Part shown: piece after piece, positions 8,322-56,099 of the stretch
How positions within the stretch are numbered: position 1 is the stretch's first letter
How the letters are laid out: each line of letters starts with the position of its first letter
Assembly: GCF_000337135.1 (NCBI RefSeq)
Contig: NZ_AOIN01000100.1
Span: forward strand, 50,111 to 114,110
DNA length: 64,000 bases
Direction: 5' to 3'
Source: Natrialba chahannaoensis JCM 10990
GTDB taxonomy: Archaea; Halobacteriota; Halobacteria; Halobacteriales; Natrialbaceae
The notes under the pieces: generated by a model
What the model was told of the DNA's origin: nothing
The model's database searches: none
The model's input: only the letters and a program-made list of their open reading frames with translations
Made by a program: the position numbers and the translations under genes

Positions 8322-9583
8322 TGACGGGGCGAGGAACACAGTGGTGGGTGGCGATCCGTCGATGGGCCGCTCGGGTGCGTGCTGCTACTGCCATTACAAT
8401 TGCCCAGCTCCGTCACCATCGGTTCCGGCTCGGATTAGCCATTATTGGTGTCGCGCTCGCTGTTTTGTCGATGACACTGCTTGCTGGCGCTGGAATGGGT
8501 GTCATCGATACCGGACACCAACAATTCGAGTCTGCGGACCGGGATCTCTGGGTAACTGCTGGTGAAACCCGGCTGACGACTGCTGGCGGTGGTGGCTTCG
8601 AAAACTCCCTCTATAATTCCCGGACCGTTGCCAGCGAGATGGAATCTCACGAAGATGTTCAGCATGCAATCCCAATGGCCTTCCAGACGATCTACGTTGG
8701 TACTGAGCCGACAGCAGACTTTGAGACGTTCGTCGGTGCTGGTGTCTCTGGGGGCGGGCCATCTGTCCAGGTAACCGAGGGAGAGCGCTTCAGCGGGGAC
8801 ACATACTACGCTAACGGAAGCTACGACGGTGAACGGACGAACGAAATTCTGCTTGATGAGGAAACAGCAGCGACCCTCGATGTCGATATTGGGGATACAC
8901 TATACGTTGGTGGAACCCTCTCTGCAGCCCGTGATACTGAAGTGACCGTCGTCGGATTCTCACCCACATTTGAGCGGATGCTTGGAACATCGACGGTTGT
9001 GATGCCGTTGAGTGAGCTCCACGAAGCAACCGGTGAGACCCGAACGGAGCCGGCAACGTTCATCACGATCACGCTTGCTGACGGCGCCGACGCAGAAACG
9101 GTCCAGGCCGATCTCGAGTTGTCCCACCCTGAGTATCAGATTCAGACAAATCAGGAGCAACTCGAGAGCGTCCTCCAAGAACAAGCCCTAGTGCTTGCTG
9201 CGGGTGCTGCGCTTGTTGTCCTCGCAATTGGTGCAGGTGTCGCACTAACGTTTAACTTGCTCGCACTGGTTGTCTATCAGCAACGAGAGGCTGTTGCTGC
9301 GTTGACTGCTCAAGGAGTCTCATCCTCACTTCTCATTGGTTCTATCATTGGGCAAGGACTGGCAATCGGTTTCGCGGGTGGACTACTTGGTGTGGTTCTT
9401 ACCACACCAGCAGTTGAGCTGTTGAACCAGATTGCCGCAGCAGTTGTTGGATTCGATGGCCTCGTCCAAACATCATCTGACATACTACTTGGTGGATTTG
9501 CCATCGCACTTGTTGTTGGAACCATCGCAGCGATCGTTGCAGGCTGGCGTCTGAGCAGGACAAAACCCCTGGACATTTTGTAG
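8321..9583 (+). CDS. FtsX/MacB-type ABC permease 2
   Basis: A 420-residue permease with the same topology as its upstream neighbour: a first helix near residues 35-58, an extracellular domain, and three C-terminal helices from about residue 290. The open frame reaches back to 8219, but the ATG at 8321 overlaps the previous stop (TAATG) and is the likely start. It is followed by two tandem hairpins (9601-9642) that end the operon. With the ATPase it should form an export-type complex; the cargo cannot be inferred. Confidence 0.85.
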   Translation: MTGRGTQWWVAIRRWAARVRAATAITIAQLRHHRFRLGLAIIGVALAVLSMTLLAGAGMGVIDTGHQQFESADRDLWVTAGETRLTTAGGGGFENSLYNSRTVASEMESHEDVQHAIPMAFQTIYVGTEPTADFETFVGAGVSGGGPSVQVTEGERFSGDTYYANGSYDGERTNEILLDEETAATLDVDIGDTLYVGGTLSAARDTEVTVVGFSPTFERMLGTSTVVMPLSELHEATGETRTEPATFITITLADGADAETVQADLELSHPEYQIQTNQEQLESVLQEQALVLAAGAALVVLAIGAGVALTFNLLALVVYQQREAVAALTAQGVSSSLLIGSIIGQGLAIGFAGGLLGVVLTTPAVELLNQIAAAVVGFDGLVQTSSDILLGGFAIALVVGTIAAIVAGWRLSRTKPLDIL

Positions 9584-36938: not shown

Positions 36939-37409
36939 TACGGACCGTTGTAGCGTCTTCCCGATAATCGCGGCCCCGTCGGACCGACCACTGGTAACGG
37001 ACCGTATGAGTTGATGCGCTGTTAGTGGTGGCTGAACGAGTACTGCGTTGCAATCGCTGAGCAAATCGGCTTCGTGAACGACAGAGCTATTTGTTTTCCA
37101 GCCGTTGTAGATGTACCAACGACAGACACCTTCGTATTATCAGATTTGAAACTGATTTATGGCCATACGGTTGTAAAGCTTGTGGCCGATTTTCGAGTCA
37201 AACGAACACCATTAATCGGTTACAGACACTGTGGACCCAGTTTAGACGTAATCTACCCGTGTGGATCAGTAAACAGGCAGTGGGACGCCTTCGTGACCAA
37301 CTCTCGTCTTGTCCCGTTCGTCGACCGCCACGCTGTCAGTGGATTCCAGTCGCCGAGTGTCATCATCTTGGTCAATATTATTAAGTAATCTGCGTGTATT
37401 GACTCGTTC
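36939..37409. other. intergenic region with cheY promoter
   Basis: No supported gene; the ORF at 37074-37388 has unusual composition for this genome and no domain. A TATA-like box (TATTATTAAG, 37376-37385) lies 25 bases before the cheY ATG, implying a leaderless or very short-leader transcript. At 37172-37190 there is a partial match to the archaellum promoter motif (GTAA-N8-GCC-GAT), opposite in orientation to cheY transcription. Confidence 0.45.
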
Positions 37410-48984: not shown

Positions 48985-49383
48985 TCAATGAACCGTCGAC
49001 TCGATATACCGCTGAACAACCTCTTCCGAAACCTCACCCGTCGTCCCCACGTAATACCCATCCTTCCACAACCCGCTCCCCCAGAAGAATGCCTGCTTGA
49101 CATTTGGATACCTCCGTAGAATCTCGTGACCCGAATACCCCTTGAACTGCTTCGCAATCTCAGCGGGACTCCACTTCGCGTCGGCCGCCACGAACAAGTG
49201 AACATGGTCAGACGCAATCTCCAGTGCCACAATATCATGCCCGAACCGCCCAGCCGTCCCATGGAACACGTCTTCGAGGTCATCTCGTACCATGTCGAGG
49301 ACACTGTGCCGGTACTTGGGGCACCAGACGAAGTGATACTTGCACAAACTAATTGAATGCGCATGACAGCGGTACTCTGGCAA
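48985..49383 (-). CDS. tnpA: IS200-type Y1 transposase TnpA
   Basis: A 132-residue HUH single-strand transposase: CKYHFVWCPKYRH near the N-terminus, the HUH motif in SDHVHLFVAAD, and the catalytic tyrosine region in VQRYIEST near the C-terminus. It excises and inserts the element as single-stranded DNA by recognising the end hairpins. It is of normal length with all motifs, so probably active. Its start is 20 bases from the divergent tnpB start. Confidence 0.93.
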   Translation of the reverse strand: MPEYRCHAHSISLCKYHFVWCPKYRHSVLDMVRDDLEDVFHGTAGRFGHDIVALEIASDHVHLFVAADAKWSPAEIAKQFKGYSGHEILRRYPNVKQAFFWGSGLWKDGYYVGTTGEVSEEVVQRYIESTVH

Positions 49384-49403
49384 GCCGAAACACCAGTTCT
49401 ATA

Positions 49404-50756
49404 ATGGCTCGCAACGATAGTCAAACTATGGGTGTCGAAGAAGCTACTCGCACTATTCAATCCCGCCTCTTCATCGAGTCGGGCAACCCCGAGTGGCTTC
49501 ACGACGCTCGACTCACAGCCCGCGAGATATTCAACGAAACCATCGACCTCAAACGAGATGGGTACAATCGAACGGAGATTCAACGCGAAGTTGACCGCGA
49601 CGACTTCCTCCGCAACAACAAGTGCGCCGTCGTTGGCAAAGCCCTCGGTACGTGGACGTCATACAAGCGCCTCCTCGACTGGTGGCACAACCAAGACGAC
49701 ACTCGCGCCGGAAATCCATCGCCGCCATCTACGGATAAGACGGGTGCGTACCCGATCGTAATGGCACACATGGAAGGATACGAGCTTTCCATCGATGAAG
49801 AGGAAGACCGCGTTGACTTCCGTATCAGTCCGAAGCCGTACAAAACGGTCCGAGGTCACTTGCGGGCTCGAAAAACCGATATTGACCAACTCAAGAACGC
49901 ACTCGATAACGATAACTGGTCAGTGGGACAAGCTGAACTCCTGTACCGAGATGGCGTGTACCACCTACACGTCACGGTCACTACGGAGTTCACCATCCCC
50001 GACCCCGAGGAAGAAGCAGACACGCTCGTCGGCGTTGACATCAACGAACGCAACGTCGCACTCACCGCACTCGACCGTGAGTCACACGAGACGCTCGGCA
50101 CGCTGGTCATTGACTACGGTTCGGTGAAAGCCCGTCGCCAATGGTATCACACGGTGAAGAAACGATGCCAAACCCACGGGCAAACCAGCATCCACCGCAC
50201 GTTCAGCGACAAGGAGGAACGCTACACCGAGTGGGTTCTCCATCGCATGTCGCTCGCCGTCGTCGAATTCGCTGAGCAATTCTCGAACCCGGTCATCGTG
50301 TTCGAGGATTTGAGTGGTATCCGCGACGCTATCGAGTACGGCACGTATATGAATCGACGGTTGCACAAGCTCCCGTTCCACAAGTTCGAGGACTTCGTAC
50401 GTTACAAGGCGTTGTGGCGGTCGATTCCGTGTGATACGGTTGACGCGTATCATAACTCGAAGACGTGTTCATGTTGTGGTGAGCGCGGGTATCGACAGGG
50501 CCGCCGATTCCGTTGCACGAATGGGGAGTGTGCCGTCACGCAAGACCACGCTGACAGGAATGCGTCGGTGAACGTGGCGTGGCGAGCGTGGGCGAAGTAT
50601 CGGGGTATCGAAGATGTAGACGAGGTAAATTACCGGACTCACAAAACCCAACCGCAAGTTAGGTTGGTGCGTCTGTTCGGGTCGGGGCGAGTTGTAAGCC
50701 GCCCATCCTCATCCGCGCGTATCGCAGAGCGCGGAGTGCTTGAACTGCAGGGCTGA
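49404..50756 (+). CDS. tnpB: TnpB RNA-guided nuclease of the IS element
   Basis: A 450-residue TnpB with RuvC-like residues Asp in LVGVDINERNVALTA, Glu in VIVFEDLSGIRDA and Asp in DHADRNASVNVAW. The zinc ribbon is CSCCGERGYRQ and RCTNGEC. The ATG at 49404 is chosen; the frame is open back to 49353. The guide RNA of such proteins normally derives from the tnpB 3' end and the right end of the element, here about 50650-50800, which would overlap antisense to the arlD 3' end. All catalytic residues are intact, unlike the remnant at 16729. Confidence 0.92.
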   Translation: MARNDSQTMGVEEATRTIQSRLFIESGNPEWLHDARLTAREIFNETIDLKRDGYNRTEIQREVDRDDFLRNNKCAVVGKALGTWTSYKRLLDWWHNQDDTRAGNPSPPSTDKTGAYPIVMAHMEGYELSIDEEEDRVDFRISPKPYKTVRGHLRARKTDIDQLKNALDNDNWSVGQAELLYRDGVYHLHVTVTTEFTIPDPEEEADTLVGVDINERNVALTALDRESHETLGTLVIDYGSVKARRQWYHTVKKRCQTHGQTSIHRTFSDKEERYTEWVLHRMSLAVVEFAEQFSNPVIVFEDLSGIRDAIEYGTYMNRRLHKLPFHKFEDFVRYKALWRSIPCDTVDAYHNSKTCSCCGERGYRQGRRFRCTNGECAVTQDHADRNASVNVAWRAWAKYRGIEDVDEVNYRTHKTQPQVRLVRLFGSGRVVSRPSSSARIAERGVLELQG

Positions 50757-53732: not shown

Positions 53733-54371
53733 TTAGAGTCGAACTGCTTCGCCGTCCTCACTGAAGAGGTCAGGCGCAGTCAGCGTGACCTGGGTCGTTG
53801 CGGACGATGGCGAGACGATGTCGAGTGTCGACTCGTCTCCCTCACCGAACGGTTCACCATCTCCGAACGGCGTGTCCTCTGGGTTGAAGACGAGCGTGAA
53901 GTCGTTCTCGTCGTCGAGGACTGCGTCAGATGGGGTGACGTATTCGTCGTTGTCATTTTCAGCGACGAACGCTCCCTCGAGATCTTCGACTTCGTCAGCA
54001 TCGTGGTCGAATTCATCGTCGGCGTAGACGAGGTTAGACTGTCCGTTTGGACCGACAGCCTGGATTATCGTATCTTCGAGAGAGATATCATCTGCCCCTG
54101 GTGCGGCAGTAATGCCAACGCGGATCTCTTCGAGGTGTCCATCCTCTGCACCGCCATCGTTGTCTACGATACCGACAGCACTCGTGGCATCAATCCGCTC
54201 GGAAACGAGTTCAGTACTCTCTTCACCTGTCGCTTCGGCCTGCGACTGCAGGAGACCTGCAGTGTTGATCAGGACGCCCGCAGCGATTGCGGCGACCAGC
54301 ACCATTGCGATGAACACAATGAGGGTACCGATCCCAACCTGACCGCGGTCGTCATTGTTGGTTTCGAACAT
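53733..54371 (-). CDS. archaellin (type B), short form
   Basis: A 212-residue archaellin. The class III signal ends in NDDRGQ and is followed by the mature start [20 protein letters not shown], cleaved by PibD/ArlK. The hydrophobic helix packs in the filament core, and the outer domain (about 130 residues) is acidic. It starts two bases after the stop of the longer archaellin gene, so the pair is co-transcribed. Its N-terminal 50 residues are nearly identical to those of its neighbour. Confidence 0.93.
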
Positions 54372-54373
54372 TG

Positions 54374-55669
54374 TTATAGCCTCACCGATTCGTCATCGTT
54401 CGTAATGGTCGTTGGAACACGAAGTTCCGCTTCCGTCGTCGCACCGGAGTCGGTCGTGAAGATAACCGACAACCGCTCACCTTCGGTCAGACGGTCGTAG
54501 TTATCAATCTCACCGACGACACGGAACGTCACTTCCGCTCGGTCAGTGCTGTCCGTCAGCACACCGTCAGTGACACCCTGAATGTTCTCGACGTTCCGGG
54601 CTTCACTGATTGCAACACTGTCTGCGCCCTGCTCGCCGATGAACTGAACAGAGGTCTGTTCGAGGTCAATCGGGTTCGATCCAGGTGCCGTTGCAGTGAC
54701 GAACTGGACTTCACTCACGCGGTTTTCGAAGTCACCGAACTCAAGAGATTCAGTCGGGATGATGTCGACTGGTCCAGCTGCGCCGTCTGTAATCACATGA
54801 TCGTCGCCCGTGTCATCAACTGCAAAGGTGTCGACGGCTTCTTCATCGAGGCCGATCAATTCGAGGACGTAGTCTCCCTCGTCAAGTTCGCCTAGGTCGA
54901 AGACTGCCACGTCATCGTCGTCGAGGTTGGCGTCATCGAGTGCAGTTTCAACTGCAGCAGTCTCGAAGTCAGCAGCCTCGTTGGCTTCGAAGACAACCTC
55001 TTCAATGATGCCCTGGCTGCGGTCACTATCCGTTGCACGGACAGCTAATTCGTTTTCGATTTCCGACTCATCGAAGTCTTCATTGGTTCCGTCTGGCAGC
55101 TCGATCGCTGCGAAGACCTGCGAACTGTCGGCTGGTGCGTCTGCTGCTTCGAGAGCGCCGAAGTCATGTTCTGGATCAGCGACAGTCGTGTCCACTTGTG
55201 CAGTCTCTGCAGCGAACGAGTCACCGTCGATAGTGACTTCCAGATCAGCAATTTCAGGAAGCCCATCGAGGACAAACTCACCTTCAACTCCCACTTCTTC
55301 TGGGAGTTCACCAAGCTGCGTGTCTTCGATCCCATCAGCAGCACTGGTGCCCACAGAAATTGTTATATCTTCCCCAGTATGCGCCTCATCGTCTGGCGTC
55401 ACTGTGACTGTAAGTTCACCATCGTTAGACCCATCATGGATACCTAACGTAGTGGGAGCGACGCTCCCCGACTCACTCACGATCTGCAGGCGATCGCTCA
55501 CCTGACTCGTCGATTCCTCACCGGTGGCTTCAGCCTGCGTCTGCAGGAAGCCAGCCGTGTTGATCAGCACGCCCGCGGCAATCGCAGCGACCAGCACCAT
55601 CGCGATGAACACGATGAGGGTGCCGATCCCCACTTGACCGCGGTCGTCGTCTGTAATTCGTTCGAACAT
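54374..55669 (-). CDS. archaellin (type B), long form
   Basis: A 431-residue archaellin, about twice the length of its neighbour. Signal ITDDDRGQ and mature start [20 protein letters not shown] are canonical. Residues 60-330 form an enlarged acidic outer region, while the last 110 residues ([20 protein letters not shown], ending [12 protein letters not shown]) resemble the C-terminal core of ordinary archaellins. Extra outer domains can decorate filaments. It is the first gene of the archaellin operon, downstream of a four-copy promoter motif. Confidence 0.92.
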
Positions 55670-55681
55670 TGGTATTATACA

Positions 55682-55696
55682 CCCGGCGATACCGGG
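55682..55696 (-). promoter_or_regulatory. hairpin in the archaellin 5' leader
   Basis: CCCGG-CGATA-CCGGG forms a perfect 5-bp stem 13 bases before the archaellin ATG. The TATA-like box CTTAATAA (minus strand, 55723-55730) predicts a start near 55700, so the hairpin would be at the 5' end of the mRNA, where it could stabilise this abundant transcript. Most haloarchaeal transcripts have no leader, so a structured leader is notable. Confidence 0.4.
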
Positions 55697-55725
55697 CAGT
55701 GGACACAGGTTCAGAGTGATTGTTA

Positions 55726-55833
55726 TTAAGTCTACTTGCCAAACTTTACACTCTTAACTCTAACTGCCGATACCTGTATATCTTAAACCTAATGGCCGAG
55801 CTGCTGGACAGGTAGTTAAACTTAGTGGCCAAT
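55726..55833 (-). promoter_or_regulatory. four tandem TTAA-N8-GCC motifs upstream of the archaellin operon
   Basis: On the plus strand TTAA is followed by exactly eight bases and GCC at 55726, 55754, 55783 and 55816, spaced 28, 29 and 33 bases. All four share TA at positions 4-5 of the spacer and A or G plus A after GCC: consensus TTAA-NNY-TA-NNK-GCC-RA. The copy nearest the gene contains the TATA-like box. Regular spacing of about three helical turns suggests a regulator binding cooperatively on one DNA face to control archaellin expression. Confidence 0.6.
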
Positions 55834-55904: not shown

Positions 55905-56099
55905 ATGAATATCGTTGACGGCGACAAGATCGAGTGTAGCCGCTGTGATGACATCGTCTCACTCGACGACGCCAATATTCTCGGCAAGACGAACAATCGC
56001 ACCTACGCGAAGCCACTCTGTAACGACTGTCTGGAAAACGTCGGCGTCCCGCGTGGCTACGAGCTCGAACGTGACGTGAGCTACCTCAAGACCGAGTGA
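55905..56099 (+). CDS. small zinc-binding protein
   Basis: A 64-residue protein with CSRC near residue 11 and CNDC near residue 39, two CxxC knuckles that should bind one zinc ion. Sequence between them (LDDANILGKTNNRTYAKPL) is typical of short haloarchaeal zinc-ribbon proteins. A TATA-like ACTTATC lies about 30 bases before the ATG. It is divergent from the archaellin operon and shares the control region, so it could be a regulator, but this is speculation. Confidence 0.7.
   Translation: MNIVDGDKIECSRCDDIVSLDDANILGKTNNRTYAKPLCNDCLENVGVPRGYELERDVSYLKTE

Follow-up and report, generated by a model that had tools for sequence, protein, structure and literature searches.

Archaellin locus and repeat array

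The window analysed here is a stretch of 64,000 nucleotides of Natrialba chahannaoensis JCM 10990. Its archaellin operon lies on the minus strand and starts at 55669. The first gene of the operon (54374..55669) encodes an archaellin of 431 residues (PF01917, E = 2.2e-31) and is followed, after a 2 nt spacer, by a second archaellin gene (53733..54371, minus strand; 212 residues), which is not preceded by an array of its own. A pair of 431 and 212 residues with a CA spacer agrees with the table row given for Nab. chahannaoensis in PMC7349177. A 236 bp intergenic region separates the operon from a divergent gene on the plus strand (55905..56099), the conserved neighbour of the array; it encodes a 64-residue zinc-ribbon-like protein with two CxxC pairs, for which Pfam returned only DUF2197, below the cut-off.

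The intergenic region houses all four copies of the motif TTAA-N8-GCC. Read on the minus strand, towards the archaellin genes, the sense word is TYGGCRANTAGRNTTAA. Searching both strands of the window with TTAANNNNNNNNGCC gave exactly four matches, at 55726, 55754, 55783 and 55816 on the plus strand, as listed in the original prediction, and all four also have the TA inside the motif and the RA following GCC that it described. Copy 1, the proximal copy (55726..55742, minus strand; sense TTGGCAAGTAGACTTAA; PWM score 29.6), lies partly over the presumed archaellin BRE/TATA. Copy 2 (55754..55770, minus strand; sense TCGGCAGTTAGAGTTAA; PWM score 23.9) lies 28 bp upstream of copy 1, copy 3 (55783..55799, minus strand; sense TCGGCCATTAGGTTTAA; PWM score 26.7) 29 bp upstream of copy 2, and the distal copy 4 (55816..55832, minus strand; sense TTGGCCACTAAGTTTAA; PWM score 19.7) 33 bp upstream of copy 3. 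The presumed archaellin TATA box, TTAATA (55724..55729, minus strand), lies within and just past copy 1 and is kept in the copy-1 consensus, so the coincidence of the proximal copy with a TATA-like box holds as described. On the start-site side the window has CACTCTGAA (55710..55718, minus strand), its form of the element yAGTywGAA, which is conserved downstream of copy 1 and belongs to the same consensus.

Chance expectation and archaellin specificity

Dinucleotide shuffles of the whole window gave 1.76 ± 1.40 scattered matches, and four or more anywhere in 8 of 100 shuffles; the evidence is therefore the clustering of the matches, their number alone being weak evidence. Three or more copies within the 236 bp region were never obtained, either in 200,000 mononucleotide shuffles or in 100,000 first-order Markov sequences, and a chance origin of the array was rejected on this basis. 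A generic motif scattered over the genome was likewise rejected, as the loose pattern is rarer in the genome of N. chahannaoensis (4.31 Mb; 40 matches) than its reversed control (195 matches). With the stricter word TTAANNCTANTNGCCRA and at most one mismatch, five matches were found in this genome: the four array copies and one at C99:83698, which has one mismatch and sits upstream of a 128-residue reading frame.

In ten whole array genomes, 27 of the 29 exact matches to TTAANYCTANTYGCC fall within archaellin clusters and the other two represent a repeated element of G126; the many matches at random genomic positions against which the original prediction had warned did not occur. In 23 array-positive sequences, 41 motif chains had a hit of at least 17 bits, and 40 of them lie upstream of an archaellin start, the scanned loci having been picked around archaellins. 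At least three copies are present in 29 of these chains, and all 29 are different.

Array geometry in related genomes

Copies in relatives were located using a matrix of 19 positions built from 52 distinct copies at arl loci, which finds up to four archaellin-sense copies; because its training set consisted of exact TTAA copies, it overstates how well TTAA is conserved. All copies within each array lie on the archaellin sense strand at conserved steps, with two long exceptions. Counting close relatives separately, 78 distances between successive copies were obtained (28 bp, 25 times; 29 bp, 27 times; 30 bp, three times; 32 bp, seven times; 33 bp, 14 times; 62 and 64 bp, once each), of which 76 are 28–30 or 32–33 bp. 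Standard arrays keep a fixed order of steps: 32/33 bp between copies 4 and 3, 29/30 bp between copies 3 and 2, and 28/29 bp between copies 2 and 1. The copies had been described as evenly spaced; the steps of 28, 29 and 33 bp in the window are unequal, and it is this inequality that is conserved among relatives. At a helical repeat of 10.5 bp, copies 1–4 take phases of 0, 240, 154 and 206°, with no clean pattern; as these are not whole turns, a simple cooperative row on one face of the DNA is not favoured.

Copy 1 ends in TTAATA and is followed by yAGTywGAA, which occurs after this copy only; copy 2 is followed by TGTmAGwT, and the spacers between copies 4 and 3 and between copies 3 and 2 are poorly conserved. 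The 3' half of the copies varies between TTAA, TTAT and CTAA. Copy 1 stands alone in G118 (at 8896) and at two G072 genes, copies 1–2 are present at six genes and copies 1–3 at four, so that the missing copies are mostly distal ones. Clusters with several archaellin genes have separate arrays for individual genes (G019, G118 and G025), with five such genes in G019. Exceptional arrangements are found in G073 (contig C5), with copies 98, 126 and 190 bp from the ATG, and in G126 (contig C8), with two copies 33 bp apart.

Likeness to core promoters

Several one-mismatch matches elsewhere (L104 and L105, L110, L111, L115 and L117) are in the sense orientation roughly 25–45 bp before a gene start. 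As this is the distance of a core promoter, the copies were scored with a promoter matrix that was derived from 98 upstream regions in N. chahannaoensis and shows TTAWGTA preceded by AC. Median scores of copies 1–4 were 7.3, 9.2, 7.2 and 6.9, whereas ordinary promoters scored 4.9 and background −4.7 (95% point 1.8), and copy positions had median ranks of 0–2 among about 130; the matrix is a weak one, since training placed its motif in 99% of the 98 upstream regions and AT-rich sites generally score well. A TATA-like box of the TTWT/TTAW kind (TTAWRTA), by sequence likeness, is present in each copy. Copies 2–4, although far upstream, thus look like core promoters too, and the proximal one is apparently the actual core promoter.

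Two features distinguish the copies from ordinary promoters: a GGC placed eight bases ahead of TTAA, and AG instead of AC before TT. Of the 98 ordinary promoters of the genome, 17 have AG as the first two of the four bases preceding TT. The non-TATA upstream half TYGGCRANTAGR is conserved in all copies; at the place of the BRE, copy 1 has CGART or CAAGT, with AG where this genome commonly has AC. The haloarchaeal core promoter has been described as a BRE of CGAAA, a TATA box of TTWT and a −10 element WW (PMC4983044). Each array copy resembles it in its TATA-like TTAWRTA and its core-promoter score; the array differs from that description in being fourfold, with near-fixed steps and with GGC and TAGR replacing the usual upstream half.

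Distribution among genomes

A sample of 117 genomes of the family Natrialbaceae, to which Natrinema also belongs, was searched at a completeness of at least 90%. The forward tandem pattern gave 48 hits in 19 genomes and the reversed control 19 hits in 14 genomes. G064 was dropped as an array genome because its single, dissimilar pair was counted as chance, leaving 18 genomes found by the pattern; the matrix added G071, G072 and G131, with arrays in TTAT variants, for a total of 21 of the 117. The scan upstream of archaellin genes in relatives that the original prediction had proposed therefore finds the array conserved. Archaellin loci inspected directly in 15 other genomes of the family showed no array (G018, G023, G013, G034, G008, G010, G012, G015, G024, G026, G028, G031, G033, G035 and G021); the rest of the 117 were covered by the pattern search. 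According to a tree, the array genomes belong mostly to related genera.

A related tandem pattern was applied across the order to 392 genomes and found arrays in 11 of the 96 family genomes, including G407, and in none of the 296 genomes of other families. This pattern misses TTAT variants and recovers 11 of 21 array genomes in the sample (20 known and G407), so that the zero outside Natrialbaceae is weak, the pattern finding about half of the known arrays.

Neighbouring genes

The zinc-ribbon gene is present in 28 of the 117 genomes, including all 21 array genomes, where it is usually adjacent to the array. Of these 28, 21 have the array but lack an archaellin-linked winged-helix gene, and the other seven have that gene without the array, so that the two never occur together; shared ancestry lessens the weight of the 21:7 split. 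An archaellin-linked winged-helix gene (at least 55% identity) was found in eight of the 117 genomes (G023, G018, G034, G085, G083, G084, G028 and G013) and in none of the 21 array genomes, and a more distant match, mostly of about 45%, occurs elsewhere in every one of the 117. In G018 the zinc-ribbon gene is on a separate contig and the winged-helix gene adjoins the archaellins.

At six array-less loci a two-gene cassette sits between the zinc-ribbon gene and the archaellins. Its first gene encodes a winged-helix protein of about 119 residues (HTH_20, E = 2.9e-7) and its second a 92-residue membrane-type protein (DUF7521), possibly acting as sensor partner to the winged-helix protein. The cassette adjoins the archaellins at the array-less loci L097, L096, L102, L103, L068, L095 and L067.

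Both states occur within single genera: in g29 the array in G086 versus the winged-helix gene in G034, G084 and G085, and in g8 the array in G071, G072 and G073 versus the winged-helix gene in G013. A tree of CheF, the HEAT-repeat protein and the zinc-ribbon protein from 26 genomes, with some low internal support values (down to 0.41), groups the array genome G086 with its winged-helix congeners; it follows that the promoter changed there and the neighbouring genes stayed. Relatives of the winged-helix gene lie near archaellins at five loci of other families (L082, L083, L086, L088 and L090), which suggests that the winged-helix-linked state is the ancestral one. Among the loci compared, no regulator was found that is linked to the array and absent beside array-less archaellin loci.

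General transcription factors were compared pairwise using the six TFBs of N. chahannaoensis and 35 TFB stretches from G034, G085, G086, G013 and G023, leaving aside two weak or partial loci of G023 and the TFBs of G071 and G030; a few of the translations compared are possibly in the wrong frame. An ortholog of each of the six was found in array-less genomes, at no less than 84% for five of them and at 63–65% for the remaining one, and a dedicated TFB paralog gained with the array was accordingly rejected among the genomes compared. A TFB common to all these species could still read GGC/TAGR.

Relation to CsmR and other systems

Haloarchaeal archaellum regulation has so far had one well-described regulator, CsmR. 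It regulates the archaellin genes of Haloferax volcanii through the site TATCA-N4-TGATA, and csmR is stated in the 2026 account always to occur with archaellin genes in Halobacteria (PMC13286277). The array shares with the CsmR system, as described there, the control of haloarchaeal archaellin transcription and sites beside the TATA box of the target promoters (PMC13286277). The CsmR site is presented as a semi-palindrome (PMC13286277), in contrast to the four non-palindromic direct repeats of the array, so the array site is distinct from that of the published haloarchaeal regulator; the array genomes also differ from the CsmR system in having no archaellin-linked winged-helix gene.

Exact TATCA-N4-TGATA is absent from the window and from every array locus scanned, and one match was found in L084, which belongs to another family. 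With at most two mismatches, the site occurs in three of 47 AT-rich archaellin upstream regions at array loci, in three of 16 upstream regions at Natrialbaceae winged-helix loci and in six of eight at the five other-family loci. The array as a CsmR site was rejected on the absence of an exact match and the three of 47. By its size, winged-helix fold and position, the linked gene is probably csmR (HVO_1209); this identity is one that we infer, because the CsmR consensus is not evident at its Natrialbaceae loci. If it is correct, the array genomes are exceptions to the rule that csmR accompanies archaellin genes.

According to the CsmR account, Haloferax volcanii has no EarA-like regulator, and recruitment of TFB is the step suggested at EarA-dependent promoters (PMC13286277). 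The array resembles the EarA-dependent promoters of Methanococcus and Pyrococcus, as reported, in placing a control region upstream of the archaellin operon (PMC5512572, PMC10665913). Intergenic repeat promoters of 58 and 29 bp have been reported in halovirus HF2, and these too repeat AT-rich promoter words, one HF2 promoter having several TATA boxes through a repeat (PMC8707807). Unlike the array, the HF2 repeats are described as dispersed between genes, each forming a promoter, and they differ in sequence (PMC8707807). A further haloarchaeal promoter with multiple cis elements upstream, direct repeats among them, is that of Natrinema sptA (PMC6085418). It differs from the array, as described, in belonging to a protease gene, in its sequences and in having no near-fixed four-copy geometry (PMC6085418). 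No description of the array was found in a search of open-licence full texts.

Proposed mode of action and alternatives

As judged from sequence, the array has four sites in one orientation at near-fixed steps, is specific to archaellins, resembles core promoters and excludes the linked winged-helix gene. We consider it reasonably probable that the array is a control promoter for archaellin genes, made of four head-to-tail modules that one factor fills cooperatively, and that it is specific to this lineage, where it replaces a CsmR-type switch. Each module would combine a TATA-like box, TTAWRTA, with the unusual fixed upstream half TYGGCRANTAGR. Copy 1 would be the working core promoter, and copies 2–4, at 28, 57 and 90 bp upstream of it, would be extra sites for the same factor; the sites would be filled cooperatively from the promoter outward, and their occupancy would set archaellin transcription. 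In part of Natrialbaceae the array would have taken the place of an archaellin-linked CsmR-like gene.

Cooperative binding, a net positive effect and functional replacement of CsmR are the three components that we infer from the sequence comparisons. Cooperative filling from the promoter seems the most likely arrangement because orientation and steps are conserved while the spacers between copies 4 and 3 and copies 3 and 2 drift. Near-fixed steps in a single orientation argue for contacts between neighbouring bound factors, and loss mostly from the distal end argues that filling begins at the promoter and moves outward. Upstream copies shed from the far end would seem to fit enhancement better than repression, and copy 1 over the TATA box would fit a repressor too. 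Because the modules resemble core promoters, TBP together with a TFB has to be taken seriously as a candidate for the factor. We give almost an even chance to a basal factor, TBP with a TFB common to all these species, loading every module, and a slightly smaller one to a separate, unlinked regulator; the balance falls to a factor of neither kind. A fuller form of the basal reading is rather doubtful: that no dedicated DNA-binding regulator is involved, four tandem TBP/TFB-type modules acting cooperatively at a near-fixed pitch, and that this arrangement replaced a CsmR-type gene within one family, in one genus with the neighbours unexchanged.

The original prediction regarded the repeats as probable operators of a regulator. 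Their place in archaellin control stands; the operator reading has to be qualified, as every copy has the score of a core-promoter module too, the proximal one is apparently the core promoter, and the array occurs where a CsmR-like gene is missing. A classical operator array is nevertheless quite possible. A dedicated, unlinked, non-basal regulator would then bind all four direct repeats, with copy 1 serving repression over the BRE/TATA or with the upstream copies recruiting TFB. Conservation of the non-TATA half TYGGCRANTAGR in all copies, unlike the promoters of the same genome, agrees with this, as do the near-fixed steps, and archaeal repressors are reported to bind over the BRE/TATA (PMC6085418). 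Against it stand the TATA-like variation of the 3' half and the finding that every regulator gene linked to the array is also found beside array-less archaellin loci.

It is improbable that the copies are independent tandem promoters, four start sites that arose by duplication of one promoter and act without cooperativity. Every copy does score as a core promoter, and repeated TATA boxes have been described at a haloviral promoter (PMC8707807). Such promoters do not need conserved steps, yet all but two of the 78 distances fall into the two narrow classes; nor do they account for the mostly distal losses or for yAGTywGAA after copy 1 only.

The divergent 64-residue zinc-ribbon protein is very unlikely to be the array-binding regulator. 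Its gene accompanies the array in 21 of 21 genomes, usually as its neighbour, and Brz, a zinc-finger protein encoded beside its target bop, provides a precedent (PMC2253796). The gene is equally present in seven array-less genomes, however, and thus does not track the array, and the protein is short, with no recognised DNA-binding domain. That the repeats, which lie between both genes, serve the zinc-ribbon gene rather than the archaellin operon is largely refuted, since arrays occur at further archaellin genes away from it (G019, G118 and G025), their orientation follows the archaellin gene, and array-less genomes have the zinc-ribbon gene at the same place.

With the array read as an archaellin control promoter, array and linked gene would provide an example from nature of how the control of one operon is rewired among close relatives, even within one genus. 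The array is also a compact DNA element for asking whether archaeal basal factors cooperate on tandem modules.

Additional observations

Single copies of 27.4–27.6 bits were observed outside archaellin upstream regions at L066:7694 (minus strand), L101:1683 (minus strand) and L109:1530 (plus strand). They share TTTGAAATrGC after the copy and possibly belong to a repeated element using the same promoter word. L104 and L105 (in G019 and G118) are apparently orthologous promoters with a single copy, CGGCAATGAGATTTAAG, at the core-promoter position, preceding a presumed membrane protein of roughly 400 residues. In the window, a weak sense match, TTGGTCAATATTATTAA, lies at 37368–37384 in the presumed cheY promoter, about 25 bp before the gene start, and a putative IS200/IS605-type pair, recognised by eye from a short transposase-like frame and a TnpB-like one, lies at 48985–50756 inside the arl gene cluster.

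Outside the array, the presumed 5' UTR of the archaellin operon contains a hairpin, CCCGG(N5)CCGGG (55682..55696, minus strand). Hairpins of the CCCGG..CCGGG type occur right before the archaellin ATG in Natrialba, and array-less relatives have a hairpin of different sequence there. Hairpin z scores reach −6.7 (L095) and −6.5 (L097); for Natrialba, G029 and G030 they lie between about −1 and −4. The hairpin does not depend on the array and may influence how well the mRNA is translated or how stable it is.
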